The notes: generated from the letters alone by a model not told the origin. A stretch of DNA of 64,000 bases from Bdellovibrio sp. GT3 (GCF_037996765.1 NZ_JBBNAD010000004.1:992001-1056000); one strand, 5' to 3'; shown: positions 3,046 through 39,533, numbered from the stretch's first letter. Numbers and translations are program-made.

Positions 3046-3858
3046 ATGAAAAGTGTGTTCATCCTTGTTTGCTGCATTCTTCTGACATCGGTTTTCTCAA
3101 TACCGACCCGAGCAGCTCCGGCTCGTACCACGCAGGTGTCTCAAGCTTGTGAGAGAAACTATACTTTTGGTTTGATCACCGTTCCACCAATTTACTTTGT
3201 GCAGTCCGGAAAGAAAAGTGGCCTGGGTTATGAGTTTTCAATTGAGGCCATGCGCAGGCTGGAATGTCGATTCACGGAAAAAGTGGGGGTTGTTTCGGCT
3301 TTGATGAATTCATTTACCAATAACAGATTGGACTTTCTAGGGCCTCTGACTGACAAAGTTGCATTTAAGAATTCGGAATTCATCGGACTCTGGAATGCAC
3401 CAAGAATATTGGTAATAAAAAAAGCAAATATAGATGTGAAGGCGAAAAATCTTGAGGCCTATATTTTTGATTCGAAGCTGGTCTTTGGTACTCTTATCGG
3501 CGGGAACATTTATTACCATGAAGAAGAAATCAATACTCTAAGGAAAAGCAATCGCGTACGTCCCTATGCAGGTGGAGAAGATATCGTTAGAGCTTTGCGG
3601 GCGGGAAAAGTCCAAGCCCTTATTGCGGGTCCTTACATTCTTGGACACTACTTTGATAAAAAAGAGCTCGCTGAAGATTATGTTCAAATCCAAGGGAACG
3701 GAAATCCATTGGAATGGGGATTTCATCTTTCAACGACACGACTGAATAGCGACGAGCGGGGTCGGTTGAGAAATGCTTTCTTGAAAATGAAGGAAGATGG
3801 AACAGCTGAGCGGATTCAAAGTAAATACAAGCAATTTGAATTTCAGGATCGGGAATAG
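3046..3858 (+). CDS. Periplasmic solute-binding protein, family 3, copy 1 of tandem pair
   Basis: A 270-residue protein with a signal peptide (residues 1 to about 24, ending TRAAPA) and the bilobal layout of bacterial family 3 extracellular solute-binding proteins. Seen are an FGLITVPPIYF first strand, SGLGYEFSIEAMRRL, and a C-terminal LRNAFLKMKEDGTAERIQSKY, the family's usual end. A cysteine pair (about C35 and C65) is shared in position with the next gene, its paralogue. No permease or ATPase gene is adjacent, so the partner is unknown; it may be a sensor or scavenging protein. Ligand cannot be predicted. Confidence 0.85.
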   Translation: MKSVFILVCCILLTSVFSIPTRAAPARTTQVSQACERNYTFGLITVPPIYFVQSGKKSGLGYEFSIEAMRRLECRFTEKVGVVSALMNSFTNNRLDFLGPLTDKVAFKNSEFIGLWNAPRILVIKKANIDVKAKNLEAYIFDSKLVFGTLIGGNIYYHEEEINTLRKSNRVRPYAGGEDIVRALRAGKVQALIAGPYILGHYFDKKELAEDYVQIQGNGNPLEWGFHLSTTRLNSDERGRLRNAFLKMKEDGTAERIQSKYKQFEFQDRE

Positions 3859-3911: not shown

Positions 3912-4730
3912 ATGACCGGTATTTTAATGAACGTGTTTTCACTTCTATTCACCGTGAATGTGTCGCTGGCGCAGGATTCTCTGCCGCAGAAAAGCACTTG
4001 CGAAAAGCGTTACGTTATTTCATTTCAAGATGATGCCCCGGGTTTCTTTATTGATAAGAATAATAAGAAGAACGGAACTGCTTACGAACTTTTGTTGGAA
4101 ATTGTTCGTCGTCTTGGTTGTAAATCCACGGAACAGGTAAATTCCTATCTGATCGCTCGCGAAAATATGGTCAGAAATAAAATTGATATCTATGCACTGG
4201 GAACACCTGACGATAGATTCGCGAAATCCGCCGAGTTTGTGGAGATGTACCGAATTCCCAGATATTTGGTGGTGAATAAGAGATATGTAAGTGGCGAAGC
4301 CACTATTGAAAGTGTTCTTGCGAATCCCAAGGTTAGCTTTGGAAATGTGCTCGAGGGGCGACTGTTTATTAAGGAATTGGAAATGAAAGCCCTGGTCGCT
4401 AAGCATCGTTTGCGGGAGTATCCGGGGCCGGGCTTGGTGTTTAAGGCGCTTTTGGATGGGCGCATTCAGGCAACGTTCAGTTCCCCGGCATTTAATTATT
4501 ATTATCTGACGACGGAGAATCGAATGCAGGACTTTTACTCCATTGAGGACGTTAAAGGCGAGCCGATTATTTCTGGATTTCATCTTTCGAAGAAAAGACT
4601 GTCAGAAAAGGAAAGAGCTGAGATCCGTAAAATTATCACGGATATTCGTCAGGACGGCACACTTGCAAAGATCGTGAAGAAATATGTGAACTCTGAGGAT
4701 TTAAAGCACTATCAGCCGCTGACTCAGTAA
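3912..4730 (+). CDS. Periplasmic solute-binding protein, family 3, copy 2 of tandem pair
   Basis: A 272-residue paralogue of the preceding gene: same KSTCEKRYVISF opening, NGTAYELLLEIVRRLGC alpha/beta element and IRKIITDIRQDGTLAKIVKKY end. The signal peptide is short and lacks the usual basic residue near the start (MTGILMNVFSLLF, cleavage near SLAQ), so the start (ATG 3912 or ATG 3927) is uncertain. A consensus TTGACA hexamer lies at 3878-3883, about 30 bp upstream, suggesting its own promoter. The 3' end overlaps the convergent next gene by 7 bp. Confidence 0.83.
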   Translation: MTGILMNVFSLLFTVNVSLAQDSLPQKSTCEKRYVISFQDDAPGFFIDKNNKKNGTAYELLLEIVRRLGCKSTEQVNSYLIARENMVRNKIDIYALGTPDDRFAKSAEFVEMYRIPRYLVVNKRYVSGEATIESVLANPKVSFGNVLEGRLFIKELEMKALVAKHRLREYPGPGLVFKALLDGRIQATFSSPAFNYYYLTTENRMQDFYSIEDVKGEPIISGFHLSKKRLSEKERAEIRKIITDIRQDGTLAKIVKKYVNSEDLKHYQPLTQ

Positions 4731-27076: not shown

Positions 27077-27802
27077 ATGAAAACTCTTTTTCTGGTTCCA
27101 TTCTTAATTGGTATTTTATCTGTCGCTCAAGGCAAAGAAGCCCGCTTGGTGACCTTTCCAATTCCTTTGATGGTGGAGGGTGAGCAGGAAGGGTTGTTTG
27201 TTAATTTGACCAGGGAGATTGCACAAAGAGTCCCGGTGAAATTCAAAGTGGATATCGTCAAGTCCAACCGGGCAAAGCTGGAGTTTTTCAACGGACTTGC
27301 AGCAGGTTATTTTCCAGGGATGGACAACTCCACTCCCAAAGATGCGCTTAAGACTGTGCCCTTTTATGTGCGCACAAATTATATTTTCTATCGCGAGAAT
27401 AAACCATTTCAAAATCTGAAAGACCTGCGCGGCAAGAAAGTGGGACTGACATTTCGCTACCACTATCCCCCGCAAATTCAAAGTGACACAAAAATCGACT
27501 TCACCTACGCCGATGACGATGTGACGAATATGCGTCGCCTGAGTGAATCCATCATAGATGCTTTTATCGTTGAGGAAAAATCGGGATTAAGAGCGTTGGA
27601 ATTGAGTCGCGCCAAGGGAATCAGCTACAATAAGGACAACCCTGTTTCCAGTCAGGATTGCTATTTTGCATTTCGTGATAATGAAGAGGGGCGTGTGCTG
27701 GTTAAGGAATTCAATTCTGCTTTGCTCAAGATGAAGGAAGATGGAAGTCTGCAGAAGATTCTGAAGCTTTCAGAATCCTCTGCCGTTAAAAAGACCAATT
27801 AG
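27077..27802 (+). CDS. Periplasmic solute-binding protein, family 3
   Basis: A 241-residue binding protein with a short signal peptide (MKTLFLVPFLIGILSVAQG). Family 3 features are EGLFVNLTREIAQRVPVKF, YVRTNYIFYRENKPFQNLKDLRGKKVGL, and the end LLKMKEDGSLQKILKLSES. It is the third stand-alone family 3 gene in the window and again has no transporter genes alongside. Its stop overlaps the convergent vWA lipoprotein gene by 4 bp. Confidence 0.85.
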   Translation: MKTLFLVPFLIGILSVAQGKEARLVTFPIPLMVEGEQEGLFVNLTREIAQRVPVKFKVDIVKSNRAKLEFFNGLAAGYFPGMDNSTPKDALKTVPFYVRTNYIFYRENKPFQNLKDLRGKKVGLTFRYHYPPQIQSDTKIDFTYADDDVTNMRRLSESIIDAFIVEEKSGLRALELSRAKGISYNKDNPVSSQDCYFAFRDNEEGRVLVKEFNSALLKMKEDGSLQKILKLSESSAVKKTN

Positions 27803-29058
27803 TTAGCCAGGGGAATTGGAACCAGGTCCACCGCGAAGCGAGCGCCTTCTTTGTAATCGTATTTGATATCACCAGAAAGCTTCACAGAGTTTGAGCTGTT
27901 GTCATATGTCCAGCCGCCGTTGATTCTATTCGCAATCAACTGACCTTTGCCTTGAGCCAACAACTCCGCAGTGCCGTAACGTACACGAAGCATCAATTTA
28001 CCAGACTCGTCCACACGAGGGATTTGAGAAAGGTAGATTTGTTTGGCCAAAGTCTTCACTGTGATTGAGTCACCCATGCTGCCCAATTCCGTACCGAAAT
28101 TAGGGGAGATAATGCTCATGATAAATTTCTTGCGAATTTCCTTTTCAGTGCCGTTGCCTTGATTCGCCAGGACGATGGCTTTTTCAATGTTCGCTGGACC
28201 AAATGGTCCGCAACCAGAAATTCTTTTCTTTTTATCCGGAGTAAAACACTCAGGGTGGTAGTCAGGGCGAACGCGCAAACCGAAGTCTTTGTTTGTGTCA
28301 GCGTCGTTTTTGTCCACAAGCACGCCGTAAACAGAAACCTTGTCTTTATTGCCACCTTTGAAGTCGATCAAAGTTTGTGCGATTTGCTCTGAAGTGATGT
28401 TGGATGAATCATCTGCATCCGTCATAAAGATCACAACCAATTGAGCGTCATCACGGAAGAAATCCTCATTCGCTGCGCCACGACCATTTTTTTGCAAAGC
28501 CGCAGTTAAGGGAGAAAAGAATTCTTCAACTTCAGGACCACCTTCAGCATATGGTGCGATACCGATTTTCAAAGTATTCGCCAATACAGCTGCAGAGTCC
28601 TTTTTAGTTACGAAGCGCTCTTGAGTGTCTGTGCCTGCAACGGTTTTTGTGAAACGCAGATCACCCATTTGGTAAGTGTCTTTCTTGGCTTTGGCAAAGC
28701 GCTCAGAACTATCCCAAGTCGAAATAACGCCGATATGGTAATCGATCATTTTATTGCTTGTGATACCGTTCGTGAAACGGTTTAAGTTCTTGATCAAATT
28801 CGCTTGCGCCGTTTTCATGGAATCAGAGTTGTCAGTTACAAACAAGATGTCAACGCGAGGGTTGAAATCAAGCTGACTTTGACCACCGTCTTCAGTAATC
28901 CAGGAAAATTGCTGAGCAGGTACATCAGGATAAACCGGAATTTCAGTTTTCTCCTGCACAAGTTCTTTTTGCGCCAGGATCGTTCCCGATTCCTGTGCGC
29001 ACGCGGAAAGAAGCATGAAAGCCGACAGATAAATACAAAGAACTAAAAGTGGTTTCAC
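27799..29058 (-). CDS. vWA-domain lipoprotein with MIDAS motif, CglB-like gliding adhesin candidate
   Basis: A 419-residue protein with a lipobox (LLSAC, acylated C20) and a von Willebrand A domain from about residue 66. The metal-binding MIDAS sequence DNSDSM supplies D76, S78 and S80; a second acidic loop, MTDADDSSN, comes later. Two cysteines flank a basic stretch (PECFTPDKKK, SGCGPFG). It is the last gene of the ten-gene Agl/Glt-like operon and overlaps the TPR gene by ATGA. In Myxococcus the vWA lipoprotein CglB, of similar size, is the surface adhesin of the gliding complex; assigning that job here is inference from domain, lipidation and context. Confidence 0.88.
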   Translation of the reverse strand: MKPLLVLCIYLSAFMLLSACAQESGTILAQKELVQEKTEIPVYPDVPAQQFSWITEDGGQSQLDFNPRVDILFVTDNSDSMKTAQANLIKNLNRFTNGITSNKMIDYHIGVISTWDSSERFAKAKKDTYQMGDLRFTKTVAGTDTQERFVTKKDSAAVLANTLKIGIAPYAEGGPEVEEFFSPLTAALQKNGRGAANEDFFRDDAQLVVIFMTDADDSSNITSEQIAQTLIDFKGGNKDKVSVYGVLVDKNDADTNKDFGLRVRPDYHPECFTPDKKKRISGCGPFGPANIEKAIVLANQGNGTEKEIRKKFIMSIISPNFGTELGSMGDSITVKTLAKQIYLSQIPRVDESGKLMLRVRYGTAELLAQGKGQLIANRINGGWTYDNSSNSVKLSGDIKYDYKEGARFAVDLVPIPLAN

Positions 29059-30122
29059 ATTTTTCTCCTAACGTTTTGTGCGCAGGACTTGGTCACAACG
29101 TCATATTTATCAAGTTCATCAACCCAAGGACGTCCATCGTCTTTGAAAACAAGAAGGTCCGCATTGGTTTTTTTGAATTCATTTTCCGTGAACATGGATT
29201 CAGCCATTTGCTGATCCGTATGCACGCGTTGAATGGCTTCAACTTCAACCAGGTTCAGCTTGCCGATGATGCGTTTGTTTTCAGCCGTCTCATCCGCCGC
29301 CAGTTGCTGAAGGCGTACTTTCATTTTTGCGAAAGCTTCTTTGTTCACCTGATCAAGCTCTGTTTGCAAAGTTCTTTGCGTGTTGTTTTTCGCAAGAACT
29401 TCCATGCCTTTTTGGCTTACTTTGAAGCGCAACATCTGTTTTTGCAGTTCCATGTCCTTATAGTAAAGAACCGGAAGCTTCAGCAAGGACTCGCCAACTT
29501 CATTGGCTTGAAGAGGGAATTTATCAACTTTCTTAAGGACGTTCAGGAAGGAGTCATTGAAACCGTTCTTGGAAAGATCCTGAACAGAGGCAACGCGGTC
29601 TCTTTGTTTTTCCTTAAACGCCTGAGTCGTTTTGAAAACAGATTTGTAATCACAGATTTTTAGGTTAGCCAGGGATTGCAGGAAGTAAGCTTCCGCATTC
29701 ACAACTTCACCAAATTGGGGGCTGATCAAAGTTTTGGATTGTGCCAAAGCTTTTTCAGAATCATTCATTCTGAAGTAAGCCCAACCTTTTTCCTCAACAA
29801 CCTGGAACCAGTAGTCAGAACCACGAGGGATCTGATTGTAAAGGTTCATGGCTTGTGAGTATTGACCTTTGGCGAACTGCTCACGAGCTTGTTTGATTTT
29901 CGCTTTGATTTTTTCATCTGCAGAGGAATTCAAAGTCTTGGATTCAAGATTTTTGAAGTTCAACAGATTCAAAGTCGTTTTACCGCTTTTTTCAGATAAG
30001 GATTTTTCCAGGGAAGTTCCCCAGTCATTAACTGAAAAACGCTCAGCAGCCAGTGCGTTGTGACCAACACCCAGGACTGTGACCATCATTAGTTTGGAGA
30101 CAAAGGATTTTCCGGAAATCAT
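29055..30122 (-). CDS. TPR-type secreted protein of the gliding operon
   Basis: A 355-residue protein with a signal peptide (cleavage near NALAAE). TPR-like helical repeats span about 75-200: QAREQFAKGQYSQAMNLYNQ, VVEEKGWAYFRMNDSEKAL, AEAYFLQSLANLKICDY. The second half is predicted mostly helical and charged, with a likely coiled coil near 270-300. I chose ATG 30122 because it overlaps the upstream stop (ATGA); an ATG at 30131 is also possible. Periplasmic TPR proteins such as GltC-type factors link outer-membrane and inner parts in myxobacterial gliding; equivalence is inference. Confidence 0.82.
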   Translation of the reverse strand: MISGKSFVSKLMMVTVLGVGHNALAAERFSVNDWGTSLEKSLSEKSGKTTLNLLNFKNLESKTLNSSADEKIKAKIKQAREQFAKGQYSQAMNLYNQIPRGSDYWFQVVEEKGWAYFRMNDSEKALAQSKTLISPQFGEVVNAEAYFLQSLANLKICDYKSVFKTTQAFKEKQRDRVASVQDLSKNGFNDSFLNVLKKVDKFPLQANEVGESLLKLPVLYYKDMELQKQMLRFKVSQKGMEVLAKNNTQRTLQTELDQVNKEAFAKMKVRLQQLAADETAENKRIIGKLNLVEVEAIQRVHTDQQMAESMFTENEFKKTNADLLVFKDDGRPWVDELDKYDVVTKSCAQNVRRKM

Positions 30123-30901
30123 AACATCCATCCAAAGCCAAGGTTGCCTGTGACAACGTTCAAGTTACGGTCGCCAGTAACTGGTTTGTCAGTGTAGTTC
30201 AAATAACGGATTTCAGCTCTTGCTGTCAGGCTTTTTGTGATCCAGGCACCAACACCCAAACCCGCCGTGTAAACAGCAGTGGATCCGCTGGACAATGTGA
30301 TTTGTCCGCCACCACCAAGAAGGTAAAGGTCGAACTGAGTCACGCCCACATCCATAAAGCTGGTTTTACCGTAGATGGGGTACCAGTTCAAAACAGCCAT
30401 GACTGCGTTTTCTGGATAGTCGATATCAACGGCGTACGCGCGGCCACCAGCCTGGTAATTGGCTTTAGCCTGATCGAAGATGCGCTGACCTTCTGGCGAC
30501 AAAGAGTTGCCGAAGTCATAGTATCTTGCCCCGATAGACCAGCGTGGAGTGATGTGGAAATCCGCCGCTACTCCCAAAGCCTGAGTTTTAGTGTAAGCAT
30601 CGCCACCGAAATTCATTCCGTAGTTAACACCAACCTCAAGACGGTTTCTTCTGTCAACAATGCGCTCCTGAACGATGCGAGAGCGGCTTTCAGACTTGAT
30701 ATTTTGCGCCATGTTCATCAATTGCTCGTTGCCGCCCAATGAATCGATGTCGTTTCTGACATCGGAATTGTCGTTTGCACGCGCCTGTTGAGAAACCGGG
30801 GCTGCAGATTTTTTAGCAGTCTTTTTGGAAGCTGCTGCGAAGGAGTTTTGCGCGCAAAGTGCAAGAACCAATGTTAGTGAAAGAAGTTTGAAGTTTTTCA
30901 T
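30119..30901 (-). CDS. Outer-membrane beta-barrel protein of the gliding operon
   Basis: A 260-residue protein with a signal peptide ending SFAAA and a short periplasmic N-terminal region (about 25-80). Alternating amphipathic strands follow (RLEVGVNYGMNFGGDAYT, WSIGARYYDFGN, VMAVLNWYPIYGKTSFMDVG, SLTARAEIRYLNYTDK) to a C-terminal aromatic-hydrophobic strand, as expected for an 8-stranded barrel. It is placed like the GltA/GltB outer-membrane proteins of myxobacterial gliding clusters. It overlaps the downstream TPR gene by 4 bp and lies 2 bp past the upstream lipoprotein gene. Confidence 0.85.
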   Translation of the reverse strand: MKNFKLLSLTLVLALCAQNSFAAASKKTAKKSAAPVSQQARANDNSDVRNDIDSLGGNEQLMNMAQNIKSESRSRIVQERIVDRRNRLEVGVNYGMNFGGDAYTKTQALGVAADFHITPRWSIGARYYDFGNSLSPEGQRIFDQAKANYQAGGRAYAVDIDYPENAVMAVLNWYPIYGKTSFMDVGVTQFDLYLLGGGGQITLSSGSTAVYTAGLGVGAWITKSLTARAEIRYLNYTDKPVTGDRNLNVVTGNLGFGWML

Positions 30902-30903
30902 AA

Positions 30904-32283
30904 CTATTTCGCCTCCGCAGTTTTAACAGCTGTTTGAGCTGGAGCCGCACATAGACCTTTGTCTTTGGCAGCTTTAACCGTTTTCAAAGAGTAGTCTGTC
31001 ACATCACTGATACGACCATTCAATGTGCTGGTCGCAGCCATTGGGATGGAACCCTTCAGAGTTTTTGAAGTCGCATCACAAGGAACTTCCCAAGTCAGCG
31101 TGCAATCCTGTTTGGAAGCACCCACTGAAGAGGTTACGCATGCAGCTTGTGGATTGCCGGGAAGAGTTGAAGATTTTGTTTCCACGTTAACAGCAGCATT
31201 TCTGTTGTTGGAAGAAGCTGAGAACTGAAGAACGATTTTTTCGCCAGGGGAAACTTCCAGGCCTTGTTTGCCCAAACCAGAAACGTCAAAGCGGGGAGCT
31301 GTGATAGTTTTTGTGTAAAGGATTTTAGCCTGAACAAGAGTTTCTGGAGCTGAACGGCCGTTAGCGCCGTAAGCTTTTACGCTGAAGCGAATGCGAGTGC
31401 CATCGGCTTGCAACATAATAGTGCCGTCTTTGTTAAGCTGTGGTTGAACTGCGATATTTTTAGTATCGAAGATATAGCTTACTTTCCATTTTGAATCGCC
31501 AAGGTATTCCGCATCTTTTTTGTTGATGTCTGCGATCACATAGCGAGAGCCATCAAGTTCCTGATAGTCTTTGCCAGTTTGGATAGCTGCGCCATCGTAA
31601 CTGATAACGACTCGTGGTTTTTGAGTTGATTTACCATCGATACCTGGAACTTTTACGATCACATTGAATGGTGTTAATTGGTCCTCAGACACTTCAGCGC
31701 CGATTCCAGTTACTGACAATTCAGTGGGAGCCAACTCAGTTTGAGAAACCAGGATGTTTTGATTCAGCTCTTTGGTCATGCCTTTAAGTGCTGCTGCGTT
31801 CTTAGCTTGGCCGCCATTGGTAATAGTCACTGTGAATTTCACAGGGATTTTTACCAAAGTGCCTTCTTGCACCAGGCTTGGTGTCCAAGTCAGGTTATAA
31901 ATGTCTTTGGCATTTGAAGGGTTTAAAGTAGCGCCTTCAGGAAGGTTTGAAGCGGTCAAAGTAACTGCCGCACCAGGAACCGGCAGGGAAGCGCGGATTT
32001 TTACTGTCTTCGCTTTGCCAGCTTCCCACATAAGGTCGTCTTCGATGTTTAACATGATCATTGATTGAGTAACGTCAGTTTCTTTGATGTAGACAGGTAC
32101 TTTCTCAATGACAACGGTTTCAGTATTGATGGTAGTCGGTTTGTCCGGACCCATCTGAGTGATTACTTTCGCTTGCGCGCGCATTTCCTCTAAGTCCGAA
32201 GACGGACTTTTTTGCCAGCCATCACATGCGGTGAGGGCCATAGCTGCCGGAATTACGATCATCAAACTTTTTACCGTCTTCAT
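30904..32283 (-). CDS. Ig-like lipoprotein of the gliding operon
   Basis: A 459-residue protein from the ATG at 32283 (AAGAGG ribosome-binding site). The lipobox is MALTAC, with C at about 20. The mature protein is beta-rich with repeated Ig/cadherin-like segments, for example KTVKIRASLPVPGAAVTLTA, TLNPSNAKDIYNLTWTP and EVSPGEKIVLQFSASSNN. The WTP and LTWEVPCD pieces recall Ig-fold repeats in surface lipoproteins. C-terminal cysteines may form disulphides. Function within the operon unknown; an outer-membrane-associated structural part is likely. Confidence 0.8.
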   Translation of the reverse strand: MKTVKSLMIVIPAAMALTACDGWQKSPSSDLEEMRAQAKVITQMGPDKPTTINTETVVIEKVPVYIKETDVTQSMIMLNIEDDLMWEAGKAKTVKIRASLPVPGAAVTLTASNLPEGATLNPSNAKDIYNLTWTPSLVQEGTLVKIPVKFTVTITNGGQAKNAAALKGMTKELNQNILVSQTELAPTELSVTGIGAEVSEDQLTPFNVIVKVPGIDGKSTQKPRVVISYDGAAIQTGKDYQELDGSRYVIADINKKDAEYLGDSKWKVSYIFDTKNIAVQPQLNKDGTIMLQADGTRIRFSVKAYGANGRSAPETLVQAKILYTKTITAPRFDVSGLGKQGLEVSPGEKIVLQFSASSNNRNAAVNVETKSSTLPGNPQAACVTSSVGASKQDCTLTWEVPCDATSKTLKGSIPMAATSTLNGRISDVTDYSLKTVKAAKDKGLCAAPAQTAVKTAEAK

Positions 32284-32311
32284 ATAAACCTCTTTAACAC
32301 CGTAGTTCAAA

Positions 32312-33541
32312 TTAACGAGCGGATACGCGCATCAATTCGAATGGGTAATTAACATCAACGTTTACTTTTCCTACCGGCTTAGGGAACTGCCAGTTTTTCA
32401 TTTTAGCAATCATGCAATCTTCAACCAGGCGTGAGTTCAAAGATGTCTGAGAAACACGCGCTGTCGAGATACGACCATTTGGCCCGATCACGAAGTCAAC
32501 TGCAACACGGCCACCGATGGCTGGCTGAGCTTGCAAGCCTTTCTCGTAGCAATAAAGAATTTGACCTTTGTTACGGTTGATCACCGCAATGATCTGATCA
32601 AGATCCAAACCACCTTCAACAGTTGCTTCTGCATCAAGTGGCAAGCTGGAAGCAGACGTTCCGCCCACCATATTCATTTTGCCATAACCTGCACGACCGC
32701 CGCCGACACCACGTGTGCCGTAGCCACCAGCAGATTGCGCACGACCACCTTCACCCGCAGAACCGGCGATCAAGCCGTTGCCAGGAAGGAAGCCTTTTAC
32801 ACCACCACGACCTGCAGAACCGACACCGCCACCACCATTGCCGATACCCGCAGAGCGGATGGCTTTCATGGAGTTGTTATCAAGACCCTCGTAACCACGA
32901 GTGCCTTTTGGAGTTCCGCCCAATGCAGCCAAGGCACCAACGCGTTGTACGTTGCGGGCTTTCGCTGTGTTGGTTGTGTATTTCTTAACTTTCAGAGGTT
33001 GTTTTTTAACCACTGGTTTATAGACCTTGTTGGAAGGTTTGATTTTCTTTTCAGAAACCTTCACGTGGGGTGCTTTTTGTTGAACGACTTTCTGAGTTTC
33101 TTGTTTAGGCAATACGATCGTCACCAAAGGAGCTTCGTCCTTTTTAGTGAAGTAAGTCGCCATAACCCAAGCGCCCATCATGATAAGACCCACTAAAACC
33201 AAGTGACCGACAGTTGTGCGAGTCAGGATGGTCTTAAGTTGTTCTTCGTCGTTTTCTTCCTGCAAAGTATGAACAGGGCTGTTGATGTCTTCAAAAGTTG
33301 CCAGTCTTACGCGACCCAATCCTTGCAGAATTTCACCTTGTTCATTCATTTTGCCAAGGTTGATTTTCTTAATAAGGCTGTATTCGATATCGTTGTTTTT
33401 AAGAACACTTAAATCAGCAAGTGCTTCCACGCGGCGAGTGTCCTTCAAATACACGATATTCAAGGACTCTGAATCCACGGCAAATGTGCGGACCTTTTGG
33501 CCTGCGATATTTTCCAGAATGATGAGTTTTGCTGCGTTCAT
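32312..33541 (-). CDS. AgmX/PglI-type TonB-like protein of the gliding operon
   Basis: A 409-residue single-pass inner-membrane protein. Residues 1-105 are cytoplasmic (no signal peptide), the membrane span is about 110-131 (VGHLVLVGLIMMGAWVMATYF), then a Lys/Pro-rich stretch (about 145-200), a Gly-rich low-complexity region (about 205-300), and a C-terminal AgmX/PglI TonB-like domain (GGLDLDQIIAVINRNKGQI, GRVAVDFVIGPNGRI, WQFPKPVG). In Myxococcus, GltG/GltJ-type proteins of this design carry energy from the AglRQS channel across the periplasm. It sits 9 bp downstream of the small secreted gene. Confidence 0.9.
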   Translation of the reverse strand: MNAAKLIILENIAGQKVRTFAVDSESLNIVYLKDTRRVEALADLSVLKNNDIEYSLIKKINLGKMNEQGEILQGLGRVRLATFEDINSPVHTLQEENDEEQLKTILTRTTVGHLVLVGLIMMGAWVMATYFTKKDEAPLVTIVLPKQETQKVVQQKAPHVKVSEKKIKPSNKVYKPVVKKQPLKVKKYTTNTAKARNVQRVGALAALGGTPKGTRGYEGLDNNSMKAIRSAGIGNGGGGVGSAGRGGVKGFLPGNGLIAGSAGEGGRAQSAGGYGTRGVGGGRAGYGKMNMVGGTSASSLPLDAEATVEGGLDLDQIIAVINRNKGQILYCYEKGLQAQPAIGGRVAVDFVIGPNGRISTARVSQTSLNSRLVEDCMIAKMKNWQFPKPVGKVNVDVNYPFELMRVSAR

Positions 33542-33550
33542 GTTTACGTC

Positions 33551-33817
33551 CTAGTTTCTTTTTTGATCGTCTTGGATCCGGTCATTAAATTCTTTTCTGC
33601 CGGTCAGGAGATCATCTAACAATTTATCGTTTTCAACCGTGGCTTTCGTATTCAGAGAGCTTTGGTATTTCCCGCGCAGTGTGCTTCCGTTAAGTTTAAA
33701 GGAGGTACCCAGTTGCGGTTTCATGCCTTCAGCTTTCTTTGCCTTGTTTGCAGCGAAGGAGCTTTGGGCACCCAGCATACAAAGCAAGAAAGGGGCCAAT
33801 AGAATTAGCTTTTTCAT
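33551..33817 (-). CDS. Small secreted protein of the gliding operon
   Basis: An 88-residue protein with a signal peptide (MKKLILLAPFLLCMLGAQSSFA). The mature part is about 66 residues, very hydrophilic, lysine-rich with no cysteine and a helical charged C-terminus (LLDDLLTGRKEFNDRIQDD). The start overlaps the stop of the large TPR gene (ATGA) and it is followed by the TonB-like gene. Function unknown; it is in the operon by overlap, not chance. Confidence 0.78.
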   Translation of the reverse strand: MKKLILLAPFLLCMLGAQSSFAANKAKKAEGMKPQLGTSFKLNGSTLRGKYQSSLNTKATVENDKLLDDLLTGRKEFNDRIQDDQKRN

Positions 33818-36774
33818 AGGCTTTTTCCTCTCTGTAATTGATTTAAACGGCCTTCCAGATACGAAGCCATTAGCGGATGGCCCATTTTTGTCTCCAGAGT
33901 TTTAAGTTTTACAATCTCACTGGCGTTGTTAGGCTCAGCTGCCACTGATTTGCGAGCGGAGGCCAAATCAGAAGCACTTGCCGGTGACGAATTTAGCGCA
34001 CTGGCGATTTCGGACTTCATTTTGCCGCCTTCCTCAAGCTGAGTGATGAGGGTCATCTCGCGTTTAAGGATGTTTTGAACCTCAGGGCGGGCATTGCGGT
34101 AGTCAGCAGCCATTTGCGCCAGGGCTGGGGAGCTGTTTAAGAGCTCTGTCTCACGTTGTTCCGCAAAACGGGCCTTCATCAAATAAGGCTTGGATTGAGA
34201 TTTAAGGATCCCAATGTACTGAGCCTGCTCTTGGGCAGTCAGACCCTTCGGCATAGGAAGATTCGACAAATCGCGAACCATTCTATCGTTTTCACGAGCC
34301 ACGATCTCAAGGGACATCAATTGAGCTGTGATATCACGAGTGCGGTTGGCTTCTGCCAACAGGCTATCAGCACGGCTCAGAAGCTTAATACGCTCTTTGA
34401 TGCCGGCTTGCATGCTACGGTCGTTTTTCGCATTGATGCCGTGGGAAGAGATCTGTTTATTGAAGCTGAGCGCCTTGTTGTAGAAAGGCTGTTTTTCAAT
34501 AAATTGCGCCGCTGAACGGTTGCGAATCTCTTTCATCGCCAAAACGGACTTCAAGTTTCCAGTCATACCCTGGCGTGCGTAAACCAAAAGGGCTGTCTCA
34601 TTCAACAAAGCTGGTTTACGGCGAAGTTCGCCGGCCTGAGCTTTTAGCTCAGCTGCGGGATTGGAGGCCAATAGCACTAGGCGAGTGCGCACCACAAGGG
34701 AGCGGTCACCTTTAAGACCCAATTTAAGGGCTGCACGGTAGTGACGTTGTGGATTGGTGTTAGCCAGGTCCGCCAAAGTACCCAAGCGGAACTCTCTGTC
34801 TCGTTCTGAGACTTTTGGCATTTTCAAGCGAACAGCCGTTTTATAAGCGCTGACGAAATCCAATTTGGTCTCGTAGTAGCCAGTCAGTTGTTCAAGCAAG
34901 GATTCTTTGCGCGGAGCCGGGATGTCAGATGCGATCAGCTTTTGTAATGCAGCCACATAGATAGCATCTTCACCCAGTTTTTGCGCCAGGATGCTTTCGT
35001 TGGTGTAAAACAAAACTTTTTCCTCTGCGGATGCTGTCGCCAGATTCGCAGATGTGATGCGCTTCAAAACAGTGCGCATGTCAGATTTGCTGGAATTTGG
35101 ATTGTTTGCCAAAGCCGCTGCCTGATTCATCAAAGCTTTGCGTGCCGTCAAATCATATTCAGCTTTGTGAGCAGGGAAGAGGCTCGCGTAGTTTGCTGCC
35201 AGATCCTGAATCTGCTCGTCGTTCTTTAGTTGCGCCAAGCTGTCCAGCGCCAGGTCCGCGGATTTTTTGCGAAGCTCTGTTTTGCCGGATTTATCTTCGG
35301 CCAGGTCGTTAAACGCAACCGCGGATTCTTTCAATTGTTTTTGCTGGTAGCTCAAGTACGCCAATTGGTAGCGAACTTCAAAAGTCTTGCCTTCGTCTTT
35401 TCCTTTCTTAAGGAAGTTCACGTAAGCCGCTTTTTGAATTTCAATGTCATTGGATTTTTCACCAGCCGCAACTTCGTTAAGAAGAGCATTTTGGCGGTCT
35501 TTTTCGGAAAGATCAGAGTTGTCACTGATCGCACGGTACAACTGGGCAGCAATAGCGGGTTTACCCATATCCATTGCCACTTGCGCACCACGAGTGGTCA
35601 TCTCTGTATCTTGCGGGAAAGTATTGGAATAGATCACATACGCGTTCAAAAGATCCTGGTCAGGTTTCAATTTTTTTGAACGGTGAAGCTCCGTCACATA
35701 GCGCTTCATGGTTTTTTTAAGCTCTTCGCATTTGGAAGCTTCTTTGCAATCTGTGCTTTTGAAAGCTTTAGCCGCTTTGGCGAAGTCCTGAGTGGATTTT
35801 CCTGCCTGACCACGGTCGTAATTGATTTGTGCCATACGCACAAAGGCTTCCAATGTTTCAGTTTCAGTCAGACCTTCCTGATCCATGTAGCGGCTTAGGA
35901 TGTCATGAGCGGCTTGTTTTTGACCGACACGGTCTGCTTCTTTGGCAAAATCCAAAAGAAGTTCTTTGCGTTTTTCTTTAGGGGAAAGCACTTCAAAACG
36001 CGCGATCTCTTTAGTTGAAATATTACGGCGCGCATAGAAAGTGCCCAGGTCGCGTACGATATCTGCGTGGAACACAGGATCGTATGAAGTTCCTTTTTCC
36101 GTATCACGAGTGATTTGTTCTGGTTTGGAAAGAAGAGATTCCAAAGTTTTGATGGCAGAAGCCAGTTTCTCTTCGTTGAAATCACTCCATGCCATATTGT
36201 AAGTGATCAACGCACGGTTTTGCAGGTTCTTATCCTGGAGTGCGATCACGTAGTGGTTTTTCGCCTCTTTGAATTTGGCTTTTTGGAATAAAAGATCGCC
36301 CAGTTCCGCATGAGAACGGGAGACGATGTCTTTGGCGATATTTTTCTTTTTAGCGTCTTTAACTATGCTTTGGAAAAGATCGATAGCCTTGTCGATTTGA
36401 CCGGCCATTTGATAAAGATGTCCCAATTGGAACAGGATGGGACCGTGTTCGTTCAATTGAACCTGGGAAAGCAGGTTCTCATAGATCTCAACCGCTTTTT
36501 GGCGGTCCGCTTTGGATCCTTTGCAACCATCACAATTGGACTCCATCTCCTGCATAAAGCGCGTGCGCGCTCTTTCAGCCAGAGTGTCAGCCAGACGTTG
36601 CTGAGTCGGGACCCACGATGGATCTTTTTTATCCATCGCCGATAAAACGCGCTCCATCTTGCCGACGACAAGATCCTGCGTGTCGGAGTTCATCTTTTCC
36701 GCGCGGGCGATCTGAGTGAACAGGGTACCCGCAAGAATTGGACTGATAATGAGGAGGCGTTTTAAGTTTTTCAT
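33814..36774 (-). CDS. Large TPR protein of the gliding operon
   Basis: A 986-residue protein with a signal peptide (cleavage near IARAE, about residue 25) followed by many helical tetratricopeptide-type repeats over most of its length, such as ILFQLGHLYQMAGQIDKAID, HAELGDLLFQKAKFKEAKNH and YQLAYLSYQQKQLKESAVA. The N-terminal part carries a CDGCKGSK cysteine pair. It is probably periplasmic scaffold, like the large TPR proteins of gliding clusters in myxobacteria. Start and stop both overlap neighbours by ATGA, so its translation is coupled to ExbD and to the small protein. Confidence 0.88.
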   Translation of the reverse strand: MKNLKRLLIISPILAGTLFTQIARAEKMNSDTQDLVVGKMERVLSAMDKKDPSWVPTQQRLADTLAERARTRFMQEMESNCDGCKGSKADRQKAVEIYENLLSQVQLNEHGPILFQLGHLYQMAGQIDKAIDLFQSIVKDAKKKNIAKDIVSRSHAELGDLLFQKAKFKEAKNHYVIALQDKNLQNRALITYNMAWSDFNEEKLASAIKTLESLLSKPEQITRDTEKGTSYDPVFHADIVRDLGTFYARRNISTKEIARFEVLSPKEKRKELLLDFAKEADRVGQKQAAHDILSRYMDQEGLTETETLEAFVRMAQINYDRGQAGKSTQDFAKAAKAFKSTDCKEASKCEELKKTMKRYVTELHRSKKLKPDQDLLNAYVIYSNTFPQDTEMTTRGAQVAMDMGKPAIAAQLYRAISDNSDLSEKDRQNALLNEVAAGEKSNDIEIQKAAYVNFLKKGKDEGKTFEVRYQLAYLSYQQKQLKESAVAFNDLAEDKSGKTELRKKSADLALDSLAQLKNDEQIQDLAANYASLFPAHKAEYDLTARKALMNQAAALANNPNSSKSDMRTVLKRITSANLATASAEEKVLFYTNESILAQKLGEDAIYVAALQKLIASDIPAPRKESLLEQLTGYYETKLDFVSAYKTAVRLKMPKVSERDREFRLGTLADLANTNPQRHYRAALKLGLKGDRSLVVRTRLVLLASNPAAELKAQAGELRRKPALLNETALLVYARQGMTGNLKSVLAMKEIRNRSAAQFIEKQPFYNKALSFNKQISSHGINAKNDRSMQAGIKERIKLLSRADSLLAEANRTRDITAQLMSLEIVARENDRMVRDLSNLPMPKGLTAQEQAQYIGILKSQSKPYLMKARFAEQRETELLNSSPALAQMAADYRNARPEVQNILKREMTLITQLEEGGKMKSEIASALNSSPASASDLASARKSVAAEPNNASEIVKLKTLETKMGHPLMASYLEGRLNQLQRGKSL

Positions 36775-37256
36775 TGTTTTGGTACCACCGCGAATTTAAG
36801 TTTTTCGATACCTGCCAGTGATCCAGCTTTGATGATTGGATCCAGGTCCGCGTATTTCATTTCGGTGTCAGCTTGGATCATAAGCTCGATCTCTTGTTTG
36901 GCGTCTTTCTTCAAAGATTCCAATTTGGATCCCAACTGGCTGTCTGCAACCCGTACGTCATTGATAAAGTAGTTGCCCTTTTCAATTCTTAAAATCGGCA
37001 TCTCTTTTTCAACACTGGTCGCCTGATCTGCCAAAGGCAGATTGATGTTGCCGGATTTCACTTCGATACCGGTCGACTGAGTACCGATCAAAAGGTAAAT
37101 CACGATAATTGAAAAAGCGTCGATCAAAGATGTCAAAGGCAGAGCCAATGCAAGATTACCTTTGCCACCAGATTTCTTGCGCGAGCCTGGTTTCAGGCTT
37201 TGCGCTTCTGCCAGCAAGGAGCGTTTTTGATTGGTGTTTAAGAATGAAGTTCTCAT
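36771..37256 (-). CDS. ExbD/TolR-family proton-channel subunit, copy 2
   Basis: A 161-residue protein with a basic cytoplasmic N-terminus (about 1-35), one membrane helix with the conserved proton-carrying aspartate D46 (LPLTSLIDAFSIIVIYLLIG), and a periplasmic ExbD/TolR domain (DQATSVEKEMPILRIEKGNYF, LMIQADTEMKYADLDPIIKA). In Myxococcus the AglRQS motor likewise uses one TolQ-like and two TolR-like proteins. It follows the other ExbD gene by 4 bp. Confidence 0.93.
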   Translation of the reverse strand: MRTSFLNTNQKRSLLAEAQSLKPGSRKKSGGKGNLALALPLTSLIDAFSIIVIYLLIGTQSTGIEVKSGNINLPLADQATSVEKEMPILRIEKGNYFINDVRVADSQLGSKLESLKKDAKQEIELMIQADTEMKYADLDPIIKAGSLAGIEKLKFAVVPKQ

Positions 37257-37260
37257 AATA

Positions 37261-37722
37261 TTACCCTAGTGGGGACAAGCCCACGCCTTCGAATGAGTTT
37301 TGCTTCAATTTATCCATCACACGGATCACATCACCGTAATTGGTTTGTGCTCCAGGACGAACAACACTTGTTTTTAGCTCAGGCCATTTTGCTTTGTAAG
37401 CCTGCAATCGTGACTCGAGAGTCGCCAAATCCAAACCTTTTGATGACTTCGCAATACGCTCTTCCAAAGTTTTAGCCTTGGGGATATCGCGCAAAGAAAG
37501 TTGCACGCTGCCGTCCGCTTCCATTGTTACCCAAAGGGACGGTGGATTTGTCGCGCCAGCTGTGGAGTTGTCTCCGATGGCCTGTTTTGTATCAATTGTA
37601 CCGACCTGCAACCACACTGCAGTCAAAAGCAAAAAGCAGATGAGTACAGAAAGGATATCCAGGATCGGCAGGATATTGAGCTCGAAATTTAATTTGTCGT
37701 TACCGTTACCTGATGCGCTCAT
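37261..37722 (-). CDS. ExbD/TolR-family proton-channel subunit, copy 1
   Basis: A 153-residue protein with one membrane helix containing the functional aspartate D22 (NILPILDILSVLICFLLL) and a periplasmic domain (SLWVTMEADGSVQLSLRD, RPGAQTNYGDVIRVMDKL). It differs from copy 2 in lacking the long basic N-terminus, so the two are paralogues with distinct roles. It lies 29 bp past the TolQ-like gene. Confidence 0.93.
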   Translation of the reverse strand: MSASGNGNDKLNFELNILPILDILSVLICFLLLTAVWLQVGTIDTKQAIGDNSTAGATNPPSLWVTMEADGSVQLSLRDIPKAKTLEERIAKSSKGLDLATLESRLQAYKAKWPELKTSVVRPGAQTNYGDVIRVMDKLKQNSFEGVGLSPLG

Positions 37723-37751
37723 AAAGCCCTCTCAGTTATGCGTTTTTATTA

Positions 37752-38432
37752 CTACTTAAGTGCTTTTTCTTTTTTGTCAGAAACTGGAGCGTAGTGGTAA
37801 CCAAGCTGGATGAACAAATTCAAAGCGCCTTTGTTCAGGTCTTCTGTCAAACGAGTCGCTCTGTTTTGAAGAACCGCATACATGATCAAAGCTGGAACCG
37901 CTACGATCAAACCGTAAGCTGTCGTATTCATCGCCAAAGAGATACCTTGTGACAAGATCGCCGCTTTTTCTGCAGGGTTTGCGTTAGAGATACCGGCAAA
38001 TGAGTGGATCAAACCTGTGATCGTACCCAAAAGACCCAGCAATGTAGCTACGTTGGCAAACATCGCTAAGAAACCAATGCGTTTTTCCACGCGAGTTGAT
38101 TCTTCAAGAAGAACTTCGTCCATTTTAAGTTGGATTTCCTCTTTACCACCCATATCGATAGCCGCTTGGATACCGGCAGAAGCCACAACACCCAATGGTT
38201 GAGTCATACCCAATTGCATTGAACGGCGTAGAGCCTTATCCAGGTTTCCAGCCTTGATATCTTCAGCTAGAGTTTTAGAGATATCCTTTTGATTTACTTT
38301 GCGATTCATGAAAAGCGCAACAGAGCGCTCAGCAATAATAGCCACAGAAACGATCTGAGCAGCTAGAATAGTCCACATCCAGATAGCATCTCCTGAAGTA
38401 AAACCGCGACCAAGTGACATTAAAAATTCCAT
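37752..38432 (-). CDS. MotA/TolQ/ExbB proton-channel protein, first gene of the gliding operon
   Basis: A 226-residue inner-membrane protein with three hydrophobic segments (about 15-35, 125-150, 165-190) and the TolQ/ExbB core, e.g. FANVATLLGLLGTITGLIHSF and ISLAMNTTAYGLIVAVPALI. With the two ExbD/TolR proteins it should form a proton-driven motor. A strong GGAGGA ribosome-binding site lies 5 bp before the ATG. The 234-bp gap upstream should hold the operon promoter, but no clear sigma-70 boxes are seen. Confidence 0.94.
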   Translation of the reverse strand: MEFLMSLGRGFTSGDAIWMWTILAAQIVSVAIIAERSVALFMNRKVNQKDISKTLAEDIKAGNLDKALRRSMQLGMTQPLGVVASAGIQAAIDMGGKEEIQLKMDEVLLEESTRVEKRIGFLAMFANVATLLGLLGTITGLIHSFAGISNANPAEKAAILSQGISLAMNTTAYGLIVAVPALIMYAVLQNRATRLTEDLNKGALNLFIQLGYHYAPVSDKKEKALK

Positions 38433-38620: not shown

Positions 38621-38645
38621 AAAGGCCAGCTTAAAGCCGGCCTTT
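38621..38645 (-). terminator. Rho-independent terminator after the carboxypeptidase gene
   Basis: A 10-bp stem with one mismatch (AAAGGCCAGC with GCCGGCCTTT) around a 5-nt loop, followed on the minus strand by a T-run. It lies 21 bp past the stop of the gene at 38667-39533 and isolates it from the gliding operon. Confidence 0.8.
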
Positions 38646-38666: not shown

Positions 38667-39533
38667 CTATTCCAAGTGAGTTCTTTGCATGATGCTGCGA
38701 TCGCATTTGCCAGTGAAGGCATGATCTTTAGCGCGCTCTTTTGGAGCATTCTCAAAGAAGCGGCGAAGGCCTGGAACATTCACGGAAACCATTTGGGCCA
38801 TTTGTGCTTCAGACGGGTTGTGAGTGGTGCCCATTTCAAACAACAAAGACCAGATGCCATGCTTCCAGTAAGCATAGTCTTCAAATGCACCATCAGCTGC
38901 ATAAAGCATGTCTTTGGAGTTCCCAACATCATAACCGCTTTCCACAACCGCATCTTTGGAAAGTTGAATGAATGTGGCGTCATCTTTGGTCATCACGTCA
39001 CGAGTTGAAAAGCCCCAAGGATACAATACTGCGGGCCAGTGAGTGTGCAAAGTTGCAGAGCTGATGATGTTTTTGGCATCGATAAAGTCCGCCAATGCCT
39101 TAGTGGCTTTGGATTTAAAAGGTTTTCCTGTGATACAAGGTCCTGGATAGTCGCGGTTTTGGTCCACTGAATTGTAACCAACGCGCTCATAGCGGGAGCG
39201 ACTGTTGAAGCCTGGGATATTCAAAACCGGAATGATGTAAACGGTGTGACCTTGGATTGGGTTTTTTGCAAATGCATCTGCAGCACCCATTGCCACAGCT
39301 GTCGAACCGTATTCGTTGCCGTGATGAGTACCCACGATCAGGTTGGCTCTTTCGCCATTGCCGATTTTAATGGCGATGATGTTTTGACCGGAATCAGAAG
39401 GGCCCAGATCAATAAGTTCAGTGGTTGAAGGGTTGGCTTGTTGAATCTGCTGCAAAGTCTGAACAACGGTTGCATAGTTGGTAACAGGCGCATTGGATGG
39501 TGATACTAATAGAGAGAATAAAAGTTCTAGCAT
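38667..39533 (-). CDS. Zinc carboxypeptidase, M14 family
   Basis: A 288-residue exported peptidase; its N-terminus (MLELLFSLLVSPSNA) may be a short signal sequence. Zinc ligands H71 and E74 (THHGNEYGS), the third His in TLHTHWP (163/165), substrate-binding NRDYPG (126-131) and the catalytic glutamate E233 (LLFEMGTT) are all in M14 order. Members of this small bacterial group cleave peptidoglycan peptides or C-terminal residues of peptides. Specificity unknown. It stands alone, with a terminator after it. Confidence 0.9.
   Translation of the reverse strand: MLELLFSLLVSPSNAPVTNYATVVQTLQQIQQANPSTTELIDLGPSDSGQNIIAIKIGNGERANLIVGTHHGNEYGSTAVAMGAADAFAKNPIQGHTVYIIPVLNIPGFNSRSRYERVGYNSVDQNRDYPGPCITGKPFKSKATKALADFIDAKNIISSATLHTHWPAVLYPWGFSTRDVMTKDDATFIQLSKDAVVESGYDVGNSKDMLYAADGAFEDYAYWKHGIWSLLFEMGTTHNPSEAQMAQMVSVNVPGLRRFFENAPKERAKDHAFTGKCDRSIMQRTHLE

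Follow-up and report, generated by a model that had tools for sequence, protein, structure and literature searches.

A ten-gene Agl/Glt-type operon of Bdellovibrio sp. GT3 as a candidate stage-specific engine in the prey periplasm

The window analysed here, a stretch of 64,000 nucleotides from Bdellovibrio sp. GT3, carries a ten-gene operon that, judged by its sequence, encodes a machine of Agl/Glt type, yet not the Myxococcus machine packed into one operon. On balance, we lean towards reading it as a stage-specific, trans-envelope engine, driven by the proton motive force, that would serve for grip and movement or seating in the prey periplasm at an early stage. The system is of a known kind, its counterpart in B. 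bacteriovorus HD100 has already been published, and the function proposed for the operon would follow from orthology and published expression. Gene content, the relationship of the motor, orthology, gene order and the paralogues in the same genome were computed here and the timing in HD100 was taken from the literature; from these we infer the force path, the adhesion role and the site of action.

All ten open reading frames were confirmed on the minus strand with overlaps or very short gaps, as a sequence-only reading of the window had claimed, and domain and profile searches matched its list of components (a channel, two ExbD subunits, TPR proteins, a bridge, a barrel, lipoproteins and a small protein). 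The genes are listed below in 5' to 3' order, after the operon itself and the terminator that precedes it.

27799-38432, minus strand: operon of ten genes (ORF calls)
38621..38645, minus strand: intrinsic terminator, strong, with an 11-bp stem and a T-run
37752..38432, minus strand: TolQ/ExbB-like proton channel of AglR type, first gene, 226 aa (PF01618, MotA_ExbB, 8.4e-30)
37261..37722, minus strand: ExbD/TolR-like subunit 1 of AglQ type, 153 aa, membrane Asp in ILPILDILS (PF02472, 2.7e-21)
36771..37256, minus strand: ExbD/TolR-like subunit 2 of AglS type, 161 aa, membrane Asp in TSLIDAFS (PF02472, 3.6e-19)
33814..36774, minus strand: long periplasmic TPR protein, GltD-like, 986 aa, signal peptide (TPR families)
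33551..33817, minus strand: small secreted protein, GltF-like, 88 aa, signal peptide (position and profile comparison)
32312..33541, minus strand: GltG/TonB-like transmembrane bridge, 409 aa, AgmX/PglI C-terminal tail (NF033760, NF033768, TonB_C)
30904..32283, minus strand: Ig-like lipoprotein, lipobox LTAC (He_PIG, 1.8e-6)
30119..30901, minus strand: outer-membrane beta-barrel of GltA/GltB type, 260 aa (TIGR04565, OMP_myx_plus, 100.8 bits, cut-off 60)
29055..30131, minus strand: short TPR protein, GltC-like, 358 aa (NF033756, GltC, 2.9e-13)
27799..29058, minus strand: MIDAS/VWA lipoprotein, candidate surface adhesin, 419 aa, lipobox LSAC, GTG start (weak VWA match)

Neighbouring genes overlap by 4 bp at 29055-29058, 33814-33817 and 36771-36774 and by 13 bp at 30119-30131, and the remaining intergenic gaps are 1-29 bp. 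At the upstream border of the operon, the terminator (38645-38621) closes the M14 peptidase gene and separates it from the operon's first gene; at the 3' end, a convergent gene overlaps the operon. For the Ig-like lipoprotein, a start at 32283 (MKTVKS...LTAC lipobox) is more plausible than the TTG at 32310. A search for a promoter of the operon gave no convincing candidate, and there are no Rfam matches in the 64-kb window. Since the ten genes keep the identical order in 13/13 related loci inspected in full, the operon is not a product of chance.

In a 38-row tree, the channel falls into an Agl clade with those of Myxococcus, Anaeromyxobacter and Sorangium and with all Bdellovibrio cluster channels (support 100/100); the same split excludes E. 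coli TolQ and ExbB together with other MotA/ExbB proteins of these genomes, and profile scores are at least 106 bits within the clade and at most 62 bits outside it. Beyond Bdellovibrio, subunit 1 scores best, at 57 bits, with the first ExbD adjoining the Myxococcus channel; its score with E. coli TolR is 28.5 bits. Compared with second ExbDs, subunit 2 scores 39 bits with that of another cluster in the same genome (C1, L044 below) and 34 bits with that of Myxococcus, against 17 bits for E. coli ExbD. The two subunits, pairing one-to-one with the first and second Myxococcus ExbD, are non-interchangeable. In both, the membrane aspartate that had been described as intact lines up with the Asp that is conserved in E. 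coli TolR and ExbD. With the channel placed among Agl and not Tol/ExbB proteins (100/100), and with both ExbDs paired to Myxococcus ExbDs and holding the membrane Asp, the grouping with Tol-Pal or TonB systems that would have refuted the sequence-only reading is not seen. Membership of such a system was dropped as a candidate, the motor lying outside the Tol/Exb clade and the operon lacking TolB, Pal and a receptor gene. The assignment to the Agl/Glt type is thus upheld by the channel, by the ExbD pairing and by the relatives of GltG, GltC, GltF, GltA/B and GltD among the remaining proteins.

The family HMM of the long TPR protein gives 64 bits with long TPR proteins in Myxococcus clusters and a weak match of 20 bits with those in Anaeromyxobacter clusters; a scan of genome contigs with the protein as query gave no match. 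The gene for the small GltF-like protein always lies immediately before the GltG gene, as do those of GltF-position proteins elsewhere. Direct profile comparison between the two groups is weak (P=1.7e-4; shuffled controls 0.3-0.5), and the Bd2368-type paralogue bridges them at 5e-11 and 5e-9; the motif they have in common is short and ends near an R..F segment. The bridge protein scores 98.1 bits with the AgmX/PglI tail model NF033768 (cut-off 40) and 1e-5 with TonB_C. It matches the GltG model NF033760 at 3.5e-37 over its C-terminal part only, with 128 bits against an equivalog cut-off of 650. It has no Pfam FHA match and no profile similarity to FHA, a domain that the GltG proteins of L044 and Myxococcus do have. 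A single-sequence AlphaFold model of its N-terminus was too poor to use (mean pLDDT 42). The short TPR protein reaches 49 bits with the GltC model, under the equivalog cut-off of 450, and is also matched in its own genome and in HD100. It is a distant GltC, the relationships of GltC and GltD type both being distant.

At the outer membrane, the family HMM of the barrel matches both barrels adjoining Myxococcus GltC; the operon has one barrel of the GltA/GltB family, over the family cut-off, compared with two in Myxococcus. For the Ig-like lipoprotein, the sole counterpart lies in the Bd2368-type paralogue (24 bits with the family HMM). The MIDAS lipoprotein carries both features of CglB-type adhesins that were tested, namely a lipobox and a DxSxS metal site; the motif (D76, S78, S80) does not vary among 15 relatives, and 15/15 of the relatives match the NCBIfam models for the Bdellovibrio MIDAS adhesin and CglD. 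Its identification as a CglB orthologue was dropped, the Myxococcus VWA matches being at domain level only. Its single-sequence AlphaFold model was too poor to use (mean pLDDT 32). A search by sequence for relatives of solved structure found none.

From this inventory, a path of force can be proposed. Proton flow through the channel and the two ExbD-like subunits would move the periplasmic ExbD domains, and the TonB-like tail of the GltG-like protein would pass the force across the periplasm. Linkage within the periplasm may fall to the GltC-, GltD- and GltF-like proteins, and the adhesion end at the outer membrane may consist of the barrel and the two lipoproteins, one of them bearing a MIDAS metal site.

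The earlier description of the operon as complete is not supported. Of the core complex of Luciano et al. 2011, the operon has the AglR-type channel, the two ExbD-like subunits, the GltG-like bridge and the GltC- and GltD-type TPR proteins but not GltE, the GltD-like gene being directly followed by the GltF-like gene. Compared with the Myxococcus-type gliding machine proper, it lacks the FHA domain of GltG, stays below the equivalog cut-offs for GltG and GltC, and has one barrel instead of two. None of the ten genes is of GltH/I/J/K type, and HD100 is reported to lack GltH, GltI, GltJ and GltK (PMC3169522). On the other hand, the operon adds two lipoproteins, the Ig-like one and the MIDAS one, to the Myxococcus-type set. 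MglA is encoded elsewhere in the genome (C5:378741-379322) and is 65% identical to a Myxococcus MglA; the Myxococcus genome was reached with a Myxococcus MglA query that served as a probe only (best match 100%).

A relative genome of 3,782,950 bp, which we take to be that of B. bacteriovorus HD100, has four clusters of Agl/Glt type, located near 0.39, 0.78, 1.40 and 2.28 Mb. We infer its gene numbers (Bd0411-Bd0420 and so on) from cluster position and order. The clusters would correspond to Bd0412-0420, Bd0828-0838, Bd1473-1483 and Bd2368-2377, with order and spacing as expected. The literature gives HD100 four such operons (PMC2797640), and both the identification of Bd1483 as a MIDAS lipoprotein (PMC11003981) and that of bd1480 as a surface-induced aglQ (PMC9140294) fit the third cluster. 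GT3 itself has three clusters, namely the operon, L044 (Bd0828 type, C1) and L043 (Bd1473 type). The operon matches the presumed HD100 cluster at 388.2-398.5 kb gene for gene, all ten in the same order, with identities of 86% for the channel, 64% for the long TPR protein, 69% for the GltG-like protein and 57% for the MIDAS lipoprotein.

Published work places this counterpart early in predation. After 30 min of predation, expression of the agl/tonB-like genes Bd0412-0420 is raised 4-7 fold, an induction that host-independent growth does not show (PMC2797640). The Bd0411-Bd0421 proteins reach their maximum between 45 min and 1 h, and the authors of that study speculated about movement inside the bdelloplast (PMC12546842). 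The proteins of Bd2368-2377 rise at exit (PMC12546842). By orthology with Bd0411-Bd0420, the operon would be made early after prey entry, and because of this timing we read it as a probable stage-specific intraperiplasmic engine rather than a general surface-gliding motor. The literature searched yielded no mutant of the Bd0411-Bd0420 cluster. Against this reading, it counts that the role is assigned by orthology and that genes switched on early could be needed for building or transport and not for movement.

Channels at least 72% identical to that of the operon occur in 28 of the 325 genomes sampled from the phylum, of which 22 are among the 24 of the genus, five more belong to the family and one to the order. 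Channels in the identity range of the Bd2368 type (about 45-60%) are more widespread within the order. Within the genus (n=24), 12 genomes have both types, 10 the type of the operon only and 2 the Bd2368 type only. Two genomes that we take to be those of Pseudobdellovibrio exovorus JSS and Ca. Bdellovibrio qaytius have neither motor type, and both encode MglA. These two species are epibiotic predators (PMC11656739). The Bd2368-type range is nonetheless present in 5/14 genomes of the genus of presumed epibiotic predators, and some other family members, whose lifestyle is not known, lack both types. Most other Bdellovibrionota sampled lack the motor type, and many Bdellovibrionales of unknown lifestyle have it; on this distribution, having the motor type does not suffice for life in prey, nor is it generally required. 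Its absence from the presumed epibiotic genomes is a hint about lifestyle, not a test, and concerns two related genomes. We put forward only tentatively the stronger idea that an Agl/Glt branch lacking FHA control and having its own MIDAS adhesin forms a dedicated prey-periplasm engine that epibiotic relatives lack.

The same distribution bears on a variant that is compatible with the stage-specific engine: in GT3 the operon could conceivably serve both entry and exit, the Bd2368-2377-type cluster being missing. Two protein queries did not find this exit cluster in the genome, which has three clusters and not four, and 24/24 genomes of the genus have the type of the operon, the Bd2368 type or both. 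Against this stand the facts that the evidence is a presence pattern and that two of the genomes without the operon's type are fragmented; we regard the variant as possible but doubtful.

A function in energised transport or assembly at the envelope (TonB/Tol-like, or surface-polymer handling of the sort suggested for the duplicated clusters of Myxococcus) instead of motility seems unlikely. It would suit the TonB-like tail and the ExbB/ExbD logic, energised uptake or secretion has been offered as an alternative (PMC2797640), and Luciano et al. found duplicated Myxococcus clusters to be dispensable for gliding and so to have other functions (PMC3169522). However, the operon has no TonB-dependent receptor, TolB or Pal, its motor lies outside the Tol/Exb clade, and the terminal MIDAS lipoprotein suits adhesion better.

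Less likely still is the organism's main surface-gliding motor, the role implied when the sequence-only reading called this a gliding operon: Bdellovibrio does glide, by machinery called unidentified in a 2026 review (PMC13104615), and Agl/Glt-type content with a barrel and a MIDAS lipoprotein is gathered in this single operon, but L044 in the same genome, with its FHA GltG, GltE and two barrels, has a channel that groups with three myxobacterial rows including the Myxococcus AglR type (93/98 in the 38-row tree) and is nearer to the Myxococcus gliding motor, the best gliding candidate named is Bd0828-0838 (PMC3169522), the surface-induced bd1480 of HD100 lies in another cluster (PMC9140294), and the HD100 orthologue of the operon is induced early in prey.

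The operon takes its place among paralogous Agl/Glt clusters that are now sorted by motor type, by the presence of FHA, GltE and a MIDAS gene, and by the number of barrels. With this sorting, and with a species, GT3, in which the exit cluster of Bd2368 type is naturally absent, it becomes directly testable how the clusters share out their work.

Compared with known systems, the operon shares with Tol-Pal and TonB-ExbBD the proton-driven principle of the channel and ExbD and a TonB-like tail, but has a separate motor clade and no TolB, Pal or receptor gene. With the Agl-Glt machinery of Myxococcus it shares the motor clade and the relatives of GltA/B, C, D, F and G, whereas the Myxococcus genes are split over several loci and include an FHA GltG, GltE and GltH-K. 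L044 (Bd0828-Bd0838 type) resembles it in its Agl channel, two ExbDs and GltG, GltF, GltD and GltC-like proteins; it differs in its FHA GltG, GltE-like TPR lipoprotein, two barrels and gene order, and, unlike the operon, no MIDAS gene was found in it. An aglS (Bd0838) transposon mutant of this type fails in prey attachment (PMC6561027). Bd2368-Bd2377 of HD100 has the sister motor type (100/95) and the same order, including the Ig-position and MIDAS lipoproteins and without FHA, but its channel is 52% identical, its GltC-like protein is larger and it has no counterpart in GT3. Bd0411-Bd0420 of HD100, finally, differs in belonging to another species and in its upstream neighbour.

No counterpart of the HD100 exit-phase cluster Bd2368-2377 was found in the GT3 genome (G000) with two protein queries. 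This cluster type is absent from 10 of the 24 Bdellovibrio genomes, GT3 among them, and all 10 retain the type of the window operon.

That operon is flanked by an M14 zinc carboxypeptidase gene, which has a terminator of its own, and by a convergent solute-binding-protein-like gene:

38667-39533, -, M14 zinc carboxypeptidase
27077-27802, +, solute-binding-protein-like (PF00497 slightly below cut-off)

Two adjoining window genes encode secreted proteins that, judged by eye, look like additional solute-binding proteins:

3046-3858, +, secreted protein
3912-4730, +, secreted protein

Outside the Agl/Glt clusters, further MIDAS/VWA proteins, possibly adhesins, are encoded at five places in GT3:

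G000:C4:625373-626110
G000:C4:371414-372109
G000:C1:91724-92275
G000:C5:1073370-1073954
G000:C4:1138-1635

The genome's third Agl/Glt cluster (L043, G000:C6:262000-280000) is of the Bd1473-1483 type, of which we take the HD100 copy to lie in L219; in L043, a MIDAS lipoprotein gene lies upstream of the channel gene. The second (L044, G000:C1:155000-172500), containing an FHA GltG, a GltE-like lipoprotein and two barrels, is nearer to Myxococcus AglR than the window operon is.
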